A DNA stretch of 64,000 nucleotides from contig NZ_JAAORB010000004.1 in assembly GCF_011601345.1 (NCBI RefSeq), forward strand, positions 1 through 64,000, read 5' to 3'. Origin of the DNA: Roseovarius gahaiensis. GTDB taxonomy: Bacteria > Pseudomonadota > Alphaproteobacteria > Rhodobacterales > Rhodobacteraceae. The notes beneath the pieces are model-generated. The model did no database searches, was not told the DNA's origin, and was given only the letters and a program-made list of their open reading frames with translations. Position numbers and translations under genes: made by a program. Every line of letters starts with the position of its first letter. Within the stretch, counting starts at the first letter, position 1. This document shows positions 28,858-33,638 of this stretch, one piece after another.

Positions 28858-29682
28858 GTGATGGATGACGACCGCAACAGCCAGTTCCGTGATGCCCAAT
28901 CCGACAGTCGCACCGCCGAACAGGTCCCTGACACGCCACAGACCCGCGCCCCGGCTTATCGGCTGGCTTTTGCAGACTCGGATTTTCTGTGCCGCGACGA
29001 GCTGCGCCCGGTGCGTTTGCAGTTGGAATTGCTCAAGCCCGAGATGATCCTGAACGAACGCGGTATTGAGAGCACCGTGGTGCTTTTTGGTGGTGCGCGC
29101 ATTCCGGAGCCTTCACAAAAAGACACGGCGCGCACCGAAACTTTGGCCAATCTGTCGCGCTATTACGATGAAGCGCGCGAATTTTCCCGGATGATCACGA
29201 TGAAATCCATGGCCAGCTATGGCCGTGAATATGTTGTGGCCACCGGCGGTGGACCGGGGGTGATGGAGGCGGGCAATCGCGGCGCAGCTGACGCAGGCGG
29301 GGCATCCATCGGGTTGAACATCGTGCTGCCGCACGAGCAGGCCCCGAACGAGTATGTCACGCCGGGGCTGTGCTTTAACTTTCATTATTTCGGCATCCGC
29401 AAGATGCACTTTTTGATGCGGGCCAAGGCGATTTGCGTTTTTCCCGGCGGTTTTGGAACGCTGGACGAGATGTTCGAGGCGTTGACCCTGATCCAGACCG
29501 ACCGGATGACCAAGGTGCCCTTCCTGTTGTTCGGCGAAGCCTTTTGGCGTCGCATCATCAACTGGGAGGCCTTGTCGGACGCGGGCACGATCAGCCCCGA
29601 AGATCTGGAACTGTTCCGCTTTGTCGACACCGCGCAAGAGGCGGTTCAGATCATCGACGACTGGTATGCCGAAGACGCCTGA
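28858..29682 (+). CDS. LOG-family (YgdH/PpnN-like) nucleotide hydrolase-type protein
   Basis: 274 residues of the Lysine-decarboxylase-like Rossmann fold that includes LOG cytokinin-activating phosphoribohydrolases. The GGGPGVMEAGNRGA motif and PGGFGTLDEMFE are the signature pair. The N-terminal 80 residues, with RLAFADSDFLCRDELRPVRLQLELLKPE, are an extension typical of the longer bacterial type. Cleavage of a nucleoside monophosphate to base and ribose phosphate is the likely activity; the true substrate is not clear. GTG 28858 and ATG 28861 both fit the AAGGA upstream. Confidence 0.87.
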   Translation: MMDDDRNSQFRDAQSDSRTAEQVPDTPQTRAPAYRLAFADSDFLCRDELRPVRLQLELLKPEMILNERGIESTVVLFGGARIPEPSQKDTARTETLANLSRYYDEAREFSRMITMKSMASYGREYVVATGGGPGVMEAGNRGAADAGGASIGLNIVLPHEQAPNEYVTPGLCFNFHYFGIRKMHFLMRAKAICVFPGGFGTLDEMFEALTLIQTDRMTKVPFLLFGEAFWRRIINWEALSDAGTISPEDLELFRFVDTAQEAVQIIDDWYAEDA

Positions 29683-29703
29683 CCCACACACACGGACCCC
29701 GCA

Positions 29704-29895
29704 TTAGACCGGCAAGGTACAAACCGGTGCGCCGCGCAACAGCGTGGTGACCAGACGCCCCTCGGACGTGTCCTTGATTGCGTAGCCGTAGCCACGCAGG
29801 CGGTGTTTCCATTCACGCTCGGACACGGCCATGCCGCGCTCGCGTAATACGAGGTTCAGAACGTCTGTTTCGCTATCGCATGTAAACTGTTTCAT
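29704..29895 (-). CDS. 63-residue protein of unknown function
   Basis: MKQFTCDSETDVLNLVLRER at the start, then a basic WKHRLRGYGYAI segment and a short C-terminal strand (RLVTTLLRGAPVCTLPV). A strong AGGAAACG site precedes the ATG. No family recognised. Convergent with the LOG gene, with 21 bases between stops. The layout suggests a small helix-plus-sheet domain, but I do not assign a role. Confidence 0.6.
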   Translation of the reverse strand: MKQFTCDSETDVLNLVLRERGMAVSEREWKHRLRGYGYAIKDTSEGRLVTTLLRGAPVCTLPV

Positions 29896-30016
29896 CGTTT
29901 CCTGCCTTCCAACAGTGTTTCACTGAAGTCGGAATAGTCAACGAACAGGGCAACAATCGTGCCGGAATGTGGCCGTCAAAAGGTTTCATGGCGACAATGT
30001 TTTTCAACGCGGATGG

Positions 30017-30730
30017 TCAATCCATGCAATGATCAACCCGATCCAGCTGCGCCTGATGCTGTTGGCGGGCGCGAGCCGCCGATACAAGCGCACGGAACAA
30101 GCCCTGTTGGCGGTGGGCGTAGAACAGGTGTTCGGGGTGCCACTGGACCCCGATGGCAAAGGGATCGCGCACGCGTTCAATGGCCTGCACCATGCCGCCC
30201 GCGTCACGCGCGGCCACGCGCAGGCCACGGCCCAGCGTATCGACCGCCTGCGAGTGTAGCGCGTTCACCTTCATCGGGCCTGTCCCCGAGACATGCGCCA
30301 ACCGCGTGGCCGGTTCGATATGGACGGTTTTACGCGGTAGGATCGTGCGGATGTAGCGGCTGTTGCGATAGACCTCGTAGGCATCCTGATGAAGCGTGCC
30401 GCCAAGCGCGATGTTCAGCATCTGACTGCCCCGGCAAATCCCCAGCACCGGCTTGTCTTGATCGAAAGCATCCTGCACGACGCGCCGTTCCAGCGCATCC
30501 CGCCCTGGATCCAGCCGCGCCGAGCGCACCAGCTGCCCGCCATACAGATCGGGTGAGATATCATCGCCACCACCGATGATGACCCCATCCACCCTAGACA
30601 GATCGGCGTCCGAGCCATCAACCCATCGCAGCGAACGCCCCCCGGCCATCCACACATTCAGCGCGATCAGCGGAAAGATGCGCCAGCCCGACCGGCGCGA
30701 GGTGGTGACACCAATCAACGGTCGTGTCAT
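30017..30730 (-). CDS. class I glutamine-amidotransferase-like hydrolase (PuuD/peptidase C26 type)
   Basis: 237 residues. The nucleophile elbow GICRGSQMLNIALGG carries the catalytic Cys; the C-terminal IGVQWHPEHLF gives the His-Glu pair, so the triad is complete. This is the gamma-glutamyl-GABA hydrolase/PuuD-like group rather than a synthase subunit. The start overlaps the stop of the amidoligase gene by 4 bases, so the two are made together. A maker/breaker pair acting on a gamma-glutamyl-type amide is the natural inference; the real substrate is unknown. Confidence 0.87.
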   Translation of the reverse strand: MTRPLIGVTTSRRSGWRIFPLIALNVWMAGGRSLRWVDGSDADLSRVDGVIIGGGDDISPDLYGGQLVRSARLDPGRDALERRVVQDAFDQDKPVLGICRGSQMLNIALGGTLHQDAYEVYRNSRYIRTILPRKTVHIEPATRLAHVSGTGPMKVNALHSQAVDTLGRGLRVAARDAGGMVQAIERVRDPFAIGVQWHPEHLFYAHRQQGLFRALVSAARARQQHQAQLDRVDHCMD

Positions 30731-31692
30731 CCCGGCAACCCGGCCATGTCCAACCCCGCCGCGCGCAGGATATCGCCGCACCGCGCCGCCCAACTGCCCC
30801 GTGTCAGCGTGACCATCCCGTGATCGTCCTGCCATTCACGGCACAAACGGGCCAACAGCGCGTCATCGGCGGCCACCCGCTCGACCGTGACCCAACGCTG
30901 CCATTCCTGTGCAAGCGACCATGCGGGATCGTCGATCAGGCAATCGGGCAGGCGAAAATGAAATGTGGGCCGCGCCGATGTTTTATCTGATATTGCCTCT
31001 GCGATCCTGTCAGGCCAGAAATGCGCGAAAATCGGCAGCATATCCAAACCCCGGTTGCGCGACGGCGTATGCTGCAGATACAGGTCCATCGCCTTTTGCG
31101 CGGTGCCATCCGGCCCCAGCCCGATCAAGGCACGTACAAAATCCGTCGGGTATGGGTAGGTAAAGGGCAGGATGCGACGCGATTCGTCAATAGGGCTGGA
31201 CGCGCGCAGCCAATCCTCGATCAGCGCATAGGCCAGAAGCGGGCGCAGGATATCGGCGTCGCTGTCCGAGGCGATCTGCACGTTCAAGTGGACGCCAAAG
31301 CCAAACACCCAGCCGGCACCAGTGCCCAGCGCCCCGGCCTTGCGCAAGACCGTGTTCAGGTGGTCCAATTGCGCCAGACCTTCAATGTCCAACGGCTCGG
31401 TCACAATCTCGACCGGCACCACCTCGCGGCCCAGATCAAGCGCCAGATCACGTAGCTTGGTCTTGTTGGCCTTGCGCAGGAAGATATCCAGATAGACCTC
31501 CAGCTTGCCAAGCGAACTGTCCTGCACGGTCCAGATATGGCTGTCATCCTGCACCGCCTGCCCGCCCAGCGTTTCGGCACACAGGCGCGCCACATGCGCC
31601 TCGTCCAGACCGCCAAGCTCGATCTCAACCCCGACACGGCGCGGTTCGCCGCTGGCAGTTATGGGCTGTGGAAGGGGAGCAAATCGGGTCAT
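30727..31692 (-). CDS. putative amidoligase (glutamine-synthetase-like fold)
   Basis: 321 residues of the putative amidoligase family (PF12224 type), a COOH-NH2 ligase with a glutamine-synthetase-like fold. Key segments: VGVEIELGGL near the N-terminus (the ExE metal-binding strand), PVEIVTEPLD, GWVFGFGVHLNVQ (the H-x-N strand), and FTYPYPTDF with PSRNRGLDMLP later. Start at ATG 31692 gives the ExE motif near residue 23. It should couple ATP hydrolysis to forming an amide bond; neither substrate nor product is known. Coupled to the amidotransferase-like hydrolase downstream by a 4-base overlap. Confidence 0.85.
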   Translation of the reverse strand: MTRFAPLPQPITASGEPRRVGVEIELGGLDEAHVARLCAETLGGQAVQDDSHIWTVQDSSLGKLEVYLDIFLRKANKTKLRDLALDLGREVVPVEIVTEPLDIEGLAQLDHLNTVLRKAGALGTGAGWVFGFGVHLNVQIASDSDADILRPLLAYALIEDWLRASSPIDESRRILPFTYPYPTDFVRALIGLGPDGTAQKAMDLYLQHTPSRNRGLDMLPIFAHFWPDRIAEAISDKTSARPTFHFRLPDCLIDDPAWSLAQEWQRWVTVERVAADDALLARLCREWQDDHGMVTLTRGSWAARCGDILRAAGLDMAGLPG

Positions 31693-31751
31693 AGCGGCAG
31701 TTGAGCATTCCGGGCCCAGTTGCACAAGGCTGACCGGGCGTCTGGGGCCGA

Positions 31752-32939
31752 TTAACCGATTCCGGCCTCGGATTCGATCTGGCGGCGGGATTTGCGGGCG
31801 CGTTCGCTGGCCGATTTCAGCTGACCGCAGGCCGCCATGATGTCTTCGCCGCGCGGGGTGCGGATGGGGCTGGCATAGCCTGCCTTGTAGATGATGTCGG
31901 CGAACTTCTCGATCCGGTCCCAATCGCTGCGCTGGTGCGGGGCGCCGGGCCATTCGTTAAACGGGATCAGGTTGATTTTCGCGGGAATTCCCTTGATCAA
32001 CTGCACCAGCCGCCGCGCATCTTCGTCGCTGTCGTTTACGTCCTTCAGCATCACGTATTCAAAGGTGATACGCTCGGAATTGCTGACTTTGGGGTATTCA
32101 CGCAGCGCGTCCAGCAGCGTGGCGATGTTCCACTTTTTATTGATCGGCACCAGCTTGTCGCGGACCTCGTCTGTGGTGGCATGGAAACTGACCGCCAGCA
32201 TACAGCCGATTTCCTCGGCAGTTTTGGCGATTTCAGGGACCACACCGCTGGTCGACAGGGTGATGCGCCGACGGCTGAGCGAAATGCCTTCACCATCCAT
32301 GGCGATCTTCATCGCGTCGCGCACATTGTCGAAATTATAAAGCGGTTCGCCCATCCCCATCAGCACGATGTTCGACAGCAAACGCGGGCCATTGTCGCCC
32401 GTCCCTTGGCCGGGTTCGGGCCATTCGCCCAGATCGTCGCGCGCCATCATCACCTGACCGATGATTTCACCCGCCGTCAGGTTGCGCACCAGTTTTTGGG
32501 TGCCAGTGTGGCAGAACGAACAAGTCAGAGTGCAGCCCACTTGGGACGAGATACACAGCGTTCCACGGTCGGTTTCGGGAATATACACCACCTCAACCTC
32601 GTGGTCGCCAGCGATGCGGACCAGATATTTGCGCGTCCCATCGGCGCTGACCTGACGGCTGACCATCTCGGGGATTTCGATCACGAAATTCCGGGCCAAT
32701 TCGGTGCGGTAGGCCTTGGACAGATTCGTCATCTCGGCAAAATCGCGCACCCCCCATTGATAGACCCACTGCCAGATCTGATTGACCCGCATCTTGGCCT
32801 GCTTTTCCGGCGTGCCTTGGGCAATCAGAGTGTCGCGCAACGCCTCACGGGTCAGACCGACAATATTAATCGGCCCCTCGGGCAGCTTGCGGGGGATGGT
32901 CATCACGTCTTGGGTGATCGGTGCGGTGCTATCGGTCAT
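31752..32939 (-). CDS. rlmN: 23S rRNA (adenine2503-C2)-methyltransferase
   Basis: Radical-SAM enzyme methylating A2503 of 23S rRNA and A37 of some tRNAs. 395 residues: the CTLTCSFC cluster (CxxxCxxC) that binds the 4Fe-4S centre, [12 protein letters not shown], the STSGVVPEI block, and the C-terminal catalytic cysteine in [11 protein letters not shown] 32939 is chosen; upstream in-frame ATGs (32975) would add a poorly conserved leader. A 374-codon antisense frame is a shadow. Confidence 0.96.
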
Positions 32940-33053
32940 GGGGTCGCGCAATCCTATCGTCAGATGGGGTTCCATATAGGATATGCGCACCGATTCCAAA
33001 ACATTCCAGTGCCGTGTGCCATGCACTGGCGCGATACCCACATGCGGCCCCCA

Positions 33054-33638
33054 TCATAGCACGCCGGATCTGTGGCCCAGTTTCGCCACCTCGTCATGGC
33101 AAGGGCATGTGGTTAGATGATCATTCACCATGCCCACGGCCTGCATGAAGGCATATACAATCGTCGGCCCGCAAAACTTGAATCCTCTTTTCTTCAAATC
33201 CTTGGAAATTGCCGTGGAAATTTCTGTGAAGGCCGGAACATCATCCAGACGGGCCCATCGGTTCTGAAGAGGGGCACCGCCGACATAGCCCCAAAGGTAG
33301 CGGTCAAAGCCCTGCTCGGCCTCGATCTGCTGCCAGACACGGGCATTCGAAATCGTCGCCTCGATCTTGCCTCGGTGGCGCACGATGCCCGGATTGGCCA
33401 GCAATTGCTGCACCTCGGCCGCGCCCCACCCGGCAATCAGGTCTGGGTCAAATCCCTGAAATGATTCACGAAACGCCTCTCGCTTGCGCAGGATGGTGAT
33501 CCAGCTCAGCCCGGCCTGAAATCCGTCAAGGACCAGCTTTTCCCATAGCGCGCGGCTGTCATATTCGGGAACGCCCCATTCGGTATCGTGATACGCCCTG
33601 TACAGGTCATCGTCTCCGACCCAGCCACATCGCTCCAT
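33054..33638 (-). CDS. tag: DNA-3-methyladenine glycosylase I
   Basis: Removes 3-methyladenine from DNA. 194 residues: MERCGWVGDDDLYRAYHDTEWGVP gives the N-terminal zinc cysteine and the substrate pocket; GLSWITILRKREAF and the C-terminal HLTTCPCH supply the remaining helix and zinc ligands. Start is ATG 33638, which puts the family's Cys at residue 4. Monocistronic between rlmN and a divergent EAL gene. Confidence 0.95.
   Translation of the reverse strand: MERCGWVGDDDLYRAYHDTEWGVPEYDSRALWEKLVLDGFQAGLSWITILRKREAFRESFQGFDPDLIAGWGAAEVQQLLANPGIVRHRGKIEATISNARVWQQIEAEQGFDRYLWGYVGGAPLQNRWARLDDVPAFTEISTAISKDLKKRGFKFCGPTIVYAFMQAVGMVNDHLTTCPCHDEVAKLGHRSGVL

Follow-up and report, generated by a model that had tools for sequence, protein, structure and literature searches.

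The window analysed here is a 64,000-nucleotide stretch of Roseovarius gahaiensis DNA (contig NZ_JAAORB010000004.1, positions 1 to 64,000). Its minus strand carries two overlapping genes, a ligase and a predicted hydrolase, which we refer to together as the cassette, and an rlmN reading frame directly upstream of them on the same strand. The features are as follows:

31752 to 33041, minus strand: rlmN open reading frame, taken from the ORF list; a clustered relative (L065) scores as RlmN.
30727 to 31692, minus strand: ligase gene, 321 aa, Amidoligase_2 (PF12224), a carboxylate-amine ligase of glutamine synthetase fold by profile match, orthologue alignment and model.
31618 to 31632, minus strand: GhExE metal/ATP motif of the ligase, G21 to E25, the motif being that of the available text of PMC2588565; G21, E23 and E25 are invariant (n = 64).
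31282 to 31290, minus strand: HxN motif of the ligase, H135 to N137, invariant in 64 aligned sequences.
30727 to 30730, minus strand: ATGA stop/start overlap of the ligase and hydrolase genes, read from the sequence.
30017 to 30730, minus strand: hydrolase gene, 237 aa, Peptidase_C26 (PF07722), a predicted PuuD/SpuA-like gamma-glutamyl hydrolase by profile match, alignment and model.
30434 to 30436, minus strand: codon of the nucleophile Cys99, invariant among aligned orthologues.
30131 to 30139, minus strand: codons His198 to Glu200 of the triad, invariant among aligned orthologues.

Is the first gene an amidoligase, as an earlier note on this DNA had proposed? Its product matches PF12224 over the whole domain, residues 16 to 268 covering positions 1 to 244 of the 245 in the profile (E 4.5e-46, 158.2 bits against a cut-off of 22), so the assignment stands. 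PF12224 is the sole Pfam family found for it at E 0.1, and the gene is the single one of this family in the window genome. The carboxylate-amine ligase superfamily is marked by GhExE on strand 1, an acidic residue on each of strands 2 and 3, [HD]x[NH] on strand 4, an arginine on strand 5 with another in the preceding loop, and Ex[RK]x2D on strand 6 (available text of PMC2588565). GhExE appears as G21-V-E23-I-E25 on model strand 20-27 and HxN as H135-L-N137 on strand 133-139; E23, E25, H135 and N137 do not vary in either alignment of orthologues, of 32 and of 64 sequences, and the ExE and HxN site of the same note is thus intact. The invariance of H135 holds within Rhodobacteraceae orthologues; 12 of 35 farther relatives of the ligase have Gln for His at this position. 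Also invariant are D69, just past strand 62-68, and E95, on strand 94-98, which we equate with the acids of strands 2 and 3 by order along the chain, not by residue-level superposition. R172, R212 and R241 are likewise invariant (n = 64), without assignment to the superfamily's two arginines. Strand 6 reads H245-x-R247-x2-D250, with His where Ex[RK]x2D has Glu, and matches the form [QH]x4D of PafA; its His and Arg are kept in 35 of 35 farther relatives, its Asp in only 12 (Asn in 20).

The structure model of the ligase (pLDDT 93.6) was predicted from an alignment of the window's sequence with 63 of 67 eligible orthologues, those omitted being near duplicates or from close species; 13 ligase and 15 hydrolase loci were not eligible for alignments because they offered no complete ATG-start frame. 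Against glutamine synthetases (8oow) the model reaches Z 13.2 with an rmsd of 3.9 over 223 aligned residues, all within about residues 107-417 of the synthetase, its catalytic part. Glutamine synthetase proper has an N-terminal beta-grasp domain ahead of the catalytic domain. This domain is absent from the ligase model, and the active site should therefore be more open. A PDB sequence search with the ligase returned nothing at E 1; the top Foldseek match of the model is YbdK (1r8g, E 1.7e-4).

The second gene had been described as that of a PuuD-like hydrolase with an intact Cys-His-Glu triad, and so it proved: the product matches PF07722 (E 2.4e-47, 162 bits, cut-off 20.5), more weakly three glutamine-amidotransferase families (PF00117 at 62 bits), and alignments of 29 and of 52 orthologues show no change at C99, H198 or E200. 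It is no PuuD orthologue by the equivalog rule of NCBIfam (NF008471), scoring 86.1 bits where 266 are required. Sequence matches in the PDB are lin1909, SpuA and PuuD. The model (pLDDT 91.6) gives Z 29.1 to lin1909 and 28.5 to SpuA and PuuD, the next entry being CTP synthase at 21.5, and Foldseek orders them alike. Its alignment held the window's sequence and 51 of 65 eligible ones, after omission of near duplicates, close species and a metagenome bin (L140) with a stop in the hydrolase frame as placed here. Elsewhere in the window genome, on a different contig, is one more C26 relative, a distant one.

How firmly are the two genes joined? The 4-base overlap noted earlier in the window (ATGA) is exact in 22 of 28 Rhodobacteraceae pairs, the other six ranging from -19 to +8, and in 65 of 80 named loci; these are the best 80 of 578 from a scan of species genomes and include many species of the same genera. 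Gene calls in the scripts were mechanical. Among 198 Rhodobacteraceae genomes, one per genus, a sequence search finds the ligase in 32 and a profile search in 33. Adjacency in related genomes had been set beforehand as a check on the cassette, and it is borne out: the hydrolase adjoins the ligase in 29 of the 33 ligase genomes, window included, and in 80 of 80 named loci (best 80 of 578). The four exceptions are G037 and G179, which have no close hydrolase, G083, where it lies on another contig, and G004, whose ligase is distant. Close hydrolase orthologues, defined by at least 50% identity and E 2.3e-64 or better (the next best match is at 6.2e-26), are present in 30 of the 198 genera, and all 30 are ligase genomes.

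In a class sample, PF12224 was found in 23 of 337 genomes, and outside Rhodobacteraceae the hydrolase adjoins the ligase in 19 of 20 loci of this sample. A phylum sample has PF12224 in 22 of 349 genomes; 13 of its 15 further loci with a clear ligase have the hydrolase (the other two are L257 and L258). Two genomes of the sample contribute five weak matches, which lack the hydrolase and do not match the profile built from A3. We rejected a defence system, since neither cassette protein matched PADLOC at E 0.01. Rfam gave no structured RNA at gathering thresholds in window positions 29500-33500.

Is this a new kind of system? The ligase family of the description published in 2008 is, going by what Pfam says of it, presumably PF12224. 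That description paired amidoligases with thiol peptidases and expected glutathione-like or peptide metabolites of them, not protein tagging (available text of PMC2588565). The arrangement and the superfamily motifs are the same as in the window, and the cassette is thus a member of a known, uncharacterised kind. The claim of an undescribed system is not supported, while the other statement, that comparative genomics had already revealed such ligases with such hydrolases but established no product, agrees with the 2008 text as far as available. Neither a product nor a link to stress figures in that text, and the open-access literature yielded no product for this kind of ligase. An EcfG-type promoter and a PhyR/EcfG neighbourhood, in Rhodobacteraceae only, are what is added here.

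Within Rhodobacteraceae we find a tie between the cassette and the PhyR/EcfG general stress response, one that is new in this analysis and was absent from the earlier note. Neighbour clustering, which omitted ORFs under 70 aa, places at least one of PhyR, an ECF sigma factor and a PhyK-like kinase near the cassette in 12 of 32 Rhodobacteraceae loci. With the best 80 of 578 loci plus the window, any of the three regulators is near the cassette in 31 of 81 and all three in 27 of 81, and the kinase lies directly upstream of the ligase in 14 of 81. One member of each family was scanned: the neighbouring PhyR combines PF22029 and PF22233 with a receiver and scores above the cut-off of the NCBIfam PhyR family, and the kinase is of the HisKA_2/HWE type with PhyK as its best NCBIfam match, below cut-off. 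We term the sigma factor EcfG-like because its gene is adjacent to phyR and because of the promoter control upstream of it. Other genes (L069, L073, L077, L085 and L089) recur at the stress-linked loci; their products are a phospholipase D-like protein, a membrane protein of the YihY/BrkB type, a PRC-barrel protein, a formate/nitrite transporter family protein and a Crp/Fnr regulator.

The EcfG consensus is GGAAC-N16-17-C/GGTT, as given in a figure legend of PMC12148442. With the ligase start set at the start codon nearest that of the window protein, GGAAC-N16/17-[CG]GTT occurs in the 300 bases before the ligase at 16 of 31 one-per-genus loci, the fairer sample, and at 23 of 80 named loci (best 80 of 578); with mechanical longest-ORF starts it does so in only 10 of the 64 loci with a clustered ligase (best 80 of 578 plus window). 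Dinucleotide shuffles gave means of 0.16 for the 31 loci and 0.295 for the 80, with a maximum of 2, and spacers from 8 to 28 other than 16 and 17 gave 0 to 2 matches each. On the reverse strand of the same stretches the motif was found in 3 of 31 and 2 of 80 loci (best 80 of 578), which is above the shuffles and perhaps due to divergent stress genes. Among controls drawn from the best 80 of 578 plus the window, the site lies upstream of ecfG in 22 of 28 cases with longest-ORF starts (positive control) and upstream of rlmN in 0 of 28 (negative control); the figures for phyR, the kinase and small-cluster genes are 16 of 31, 1 of 30 and 44 of 875.

Sites often begin 32-36 bases before the chosen ligase start (7 of 16 sites, and 12 of 23 in the best 80 of 578), for example at L153, L166, L173, L188 and L197. 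At that distance transcription would begin at or near the start, so the mRNA may be leaderless or the true start may be further in.

At the level of whole genomes, PhyR is present at E 1e-20 in 84 of 198 genera, 27 of the 33 with the ligase versus 57 of the 165 without it (Fisher p 6e-7, a test that ignores kinship). This threshold was picked after viewing the match list so as to part PhyR from plain sigma factors; p is 2e-5 at E 1e-15 and at 1e-22, and rises to 0.02 at E 1e-3, a level that also admits plain sigma factors. In the one-per-genus set plus the window, the promoter site is found in 16 of 26 loci with PhyR in the genome and 0 of 6 without (p 0.018); the PhyR and promoter tables behind these tests were compiled by hand.

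Outside Rhodobacteraceae, core stress regulators are near the cassette in 0 of 20 loci, and the exact EcfG motif occurs in 2 of 20. A common neighbour theme for these loci was rejected, as ten neighbours picked from 116 belong to unrelated families (TauE, sortase, VIT/VWA, peroxidase, CitMHS transporter, anthranilate synthase, glycosyltransferase and LrgB, with two unmatched). Among the named loci, L136 comes from a metagenome-assembled genome named Oceanospirillaceae and labelled a gammaproteobacterium; its ligase is 58% identical to that of the window and preceded by the EcfG motif, the bin has no PhyR match, and it is probably a misbinned Rhodobacteraceae contig.

The main text of PMC12148442, on a stress system in Rhodobacteraceae, contains neither 'amidoligase' nor 'glutamine'. 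No paper in the open-access collection searched, a scope that leaves aside most subscription papers, holds both 'amidoligase' and 'general stress response', and among the matches listed in literature searches none links EcfG, PhyR and amidoligase.

How does the window itself fit into this picture? In many relatives the cassette lies near the core genes of the PhyR-NepR-EcfG response or behind an EcfG-type promoter, whereas the window has no EcfG site with up to one mismatch in the 150 bases upstream and no exact site in 300, and its genome gives no PhyR_sigma2 match. We mapped these traits on a ligase tree of 102 sequences (10 of 112 dropped as near-identical), built by a quick method and with many weak forks; the stress neighbourhood of the 32 Rhodobacteraceae loci was entered by hand. 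Of the tree ligases, 57 have the promoter or a stress-locus neighbourhood, spread over most main branches, and under parsimony the promoter requires 20 changes, the stress neighbourhood 9, either of these two links 17 and the rlmN neighbourhood 3. Because promoter sites are spread over the tree, the cassette may well be an old EcfG target.

The window's ligase groups with Roseovarius, sharing 74% identity with L127, and this group falls within a supported clade of 32, of which 30 have rlmN near the cassette; over the best 80 of 578 loci plus the window, rlmN is directly upstream of the ligase in 26 of 81, window included. Six members of the clade still have the promoter before the ligase (L131, L135, L138, L143, L149 and L150). 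Most Thioclava have a site with one mismatch, such sites being found in 174 of 3240 random pieces as well, and the loci of Roseovarius, Actibacterium and Lutimaribacter, like the window, have none. Was the site lost only where PhyR was lost? This idea fits the one-per-genus figures above but fails in the window's clade. PhyR is present in 20 of 27 genomes of the clade, and seven of the ten Roseovarius are among them with PhyR but without the site, so that the promoter was lost there without loss of PhyR; six of the seven genomes without PhyR are metagenome bins. Between rlmN and the ligase the gap is -8 to 14 bases in several of these Roseovarius and 69-79 in others; the window has 59. Such short gaps make co-transcription with rlmN likely, and rlmN is the probable source of cassette transcription in this clade. 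The possibility that an EcfG site before rlmN keeps the cassette in the stress regulon was rejected, as none of 28 rlmN loci has such a site (best 80 of 578 plus window).

Further upstream, beyond rlmN, the window encodes a methyladenine glycosylase family protein (PF03352; 33054-33671, minus strand) and an EAL-domain protein (PF00563; 33742-34584, plus strand). Facing the cassette from the other side is a lysine-decarboxylase-like, LOG-type protein (PF03641; 28858-29682, plus strand), whose cluster of relatives occurs in 18 of 81 loci, window included (best 80 of 578 plus window).

What might the pair make? Families, catalytic residues, folds, adjacency and promoter sites in relatives are computed; we infer the acid substrate, the amine, the direction of flux and a role in stress, along with the ancestry of EcfG control and the co-transcription with rlmN. 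In the reading we prefer, and to which we would give an even chance, the cassette of Rhodobacteraceae is a stress-regulated, ATP-dependent glutamyl-amide ligase with a gamma-glutamyl hydrolase, its product unassigned. Ligase and hydrolase would be made together from one message. The ligase would most likely use ATP to phosphorylate the gamma-carboxylate of glutamate, the presumed acid, and then join the activated glutamate to an amine, conceivably a small amine, an amino acid or a polyamine, to give a gamma-glutamyl amide. The C26 hydrolase would cut this amide through its Cys-His-Glu triad, and the pair could thereby mask an amine and free it again, or control how much of a gamma-glutamyl metabolite is present. 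An old EcfG target in the family, the cassette would have lost its promoter in the window's clade and come to follow rlmN. Against this reading speaks the consideration that a maker and a breaker in one transcript would be futile together if their activities were neither separated in time nor directed at different compounds.

Known pathways offer partial parallels. E. coli has PuuA-PuuD, and Pseudomonas has gamma-glutamylpolyamine routes with SpuA; PuuA is a full glutamine synthetase homologue. These routes resemble the cassette in joining a ligase of glutamine synthetase fold to a C26 hydrolase, with PuuD and SpuA among the nearest folds to the window's hydrolase. They differ in that the match of the window ligase to glutamine synthetase is confined to the catalytic part of the latter, the hydrolase falls under the PuuD cut-off, and no oxidation genes were recognised beside the cassette in the window. 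The available text of PMC2588565 names as the partner of such ligases a thiol peptidase resembling C26 in proteobacteria and, in firmicutes, a gamma-glutamyl cyclotransferase of the Aig2 type, and an adjacent pair of 'putative amidoligase' and 'AIG2/GGCT-like' proteins is tabulated in PMC3485107. That the two types of partner replace each other is the best hint of a gamma-glutamyl bond in the product.

Could the C26 protein act as a glutaminase instead, feeding ammonia to the ligase? MurT-GatD is a pair of a ligase and a class-I amidotransferase. With this precedent from peptidoglycan precursors, the cassette would encode the two subunits of a glutamine-dependent amidotransferase acting on a carboxylate. 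Genes for subunits typically show such strict adjacency and such translational coupling, and the hydrolase does match PF00117. Yet its score for that family is 62 bits as against 162 for PF07722, its fold is far nearer to lin1909, SpuA and PuuD (Z 27-29) than to the listed synthase amidotransferases (Z up to 21.5), the genes of G083 are on different contigs, and G037 and G179 have no close hydrolase. We regard ammonia feeding as unlikely.

Another reading gives the pair a gamma-glutamyl peptide of its own, glutathione-like, to make and recycle, with the hydrolase in a salvage role. Glutathione or related peptide metabolites were predicted for such pairs (available text of PMC2588565), and the fold and the GhExE motif are shared with the YbdK and GCS2 gamma-glutamyl:cysteine ligases, although these belong to another Pfam family and the window ligase has no PDB sequence match at E 1. 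The Foldseek search above ranked YbdK first for the ligase model. YbdK is reportedly a carboxylate-amine ligase with gamma-glutamyl:cysteine ligase activity. A longer peptide would call for a second peptide ligase, however, and none was recognised beside the cassette in the window, the neighbours in other genomes being partly identified; that the acceptor is an amino acid rather than an amine is, moreover, an assumption. This, too, strikes us as improbable.

A 63-aa ORF (window 29704-29895, minus strand), without a Pfam match at E 0.1, is conserved immediately downstream of the cassette at ten loci of the window's clade. It is present in 50 of 198 Rhodobacteraceae genera, 11 of the 33 with the ligase and 39 of the 165 without, and in 10 of the 11 ligase genera it lies away from the cassette. 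It is a small family of unassigned function, scattered over Rhodobacteraceae. We rejected it as a Pup-like tag, since no clade but the window's has it behind the cassette and its occurrence across genera shows no association with that of the ligase; a protein or peptide tag is left without support here. Protein tagging like pupylation, with the hydrolase as remover, is thus very improbable, even though the ligase belongs to the same fold superfamily as the Pup ligase PafA and shares with it GhExE, [HQ]x[NH] and, within Rhodobacteraceae, the H-x4-D rather than the Glu form of the strand-6 motif, for the Asp of that motif is kept in so few farther relatives and the 63-aa ORF, the lone small one found beside the cassette and the one tested as a Pup-like partner, does not co-occur with the ligase.

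We return to the glutamyl-amide ligase and its gamma-glutamyl hydrolase. In a bolder form of this reading, which we put a little short of even, the cassette would serve Rhodobacteraceae as an output module of the alphaproteobacterial general stress response, often placed within the phyR-ecfG-phyK locus itself, that would make and remove a gamma-glutamyl compound protective under stress and that would have been rewired from EcfG to the rlmN transcript in the Roseovarius clade. The tight tie to a well-studied stress switch tells when, and in which deletion strains, to look, and the product of this kind of ligase should therefore be findable by metabolite comparison of a few mutants.
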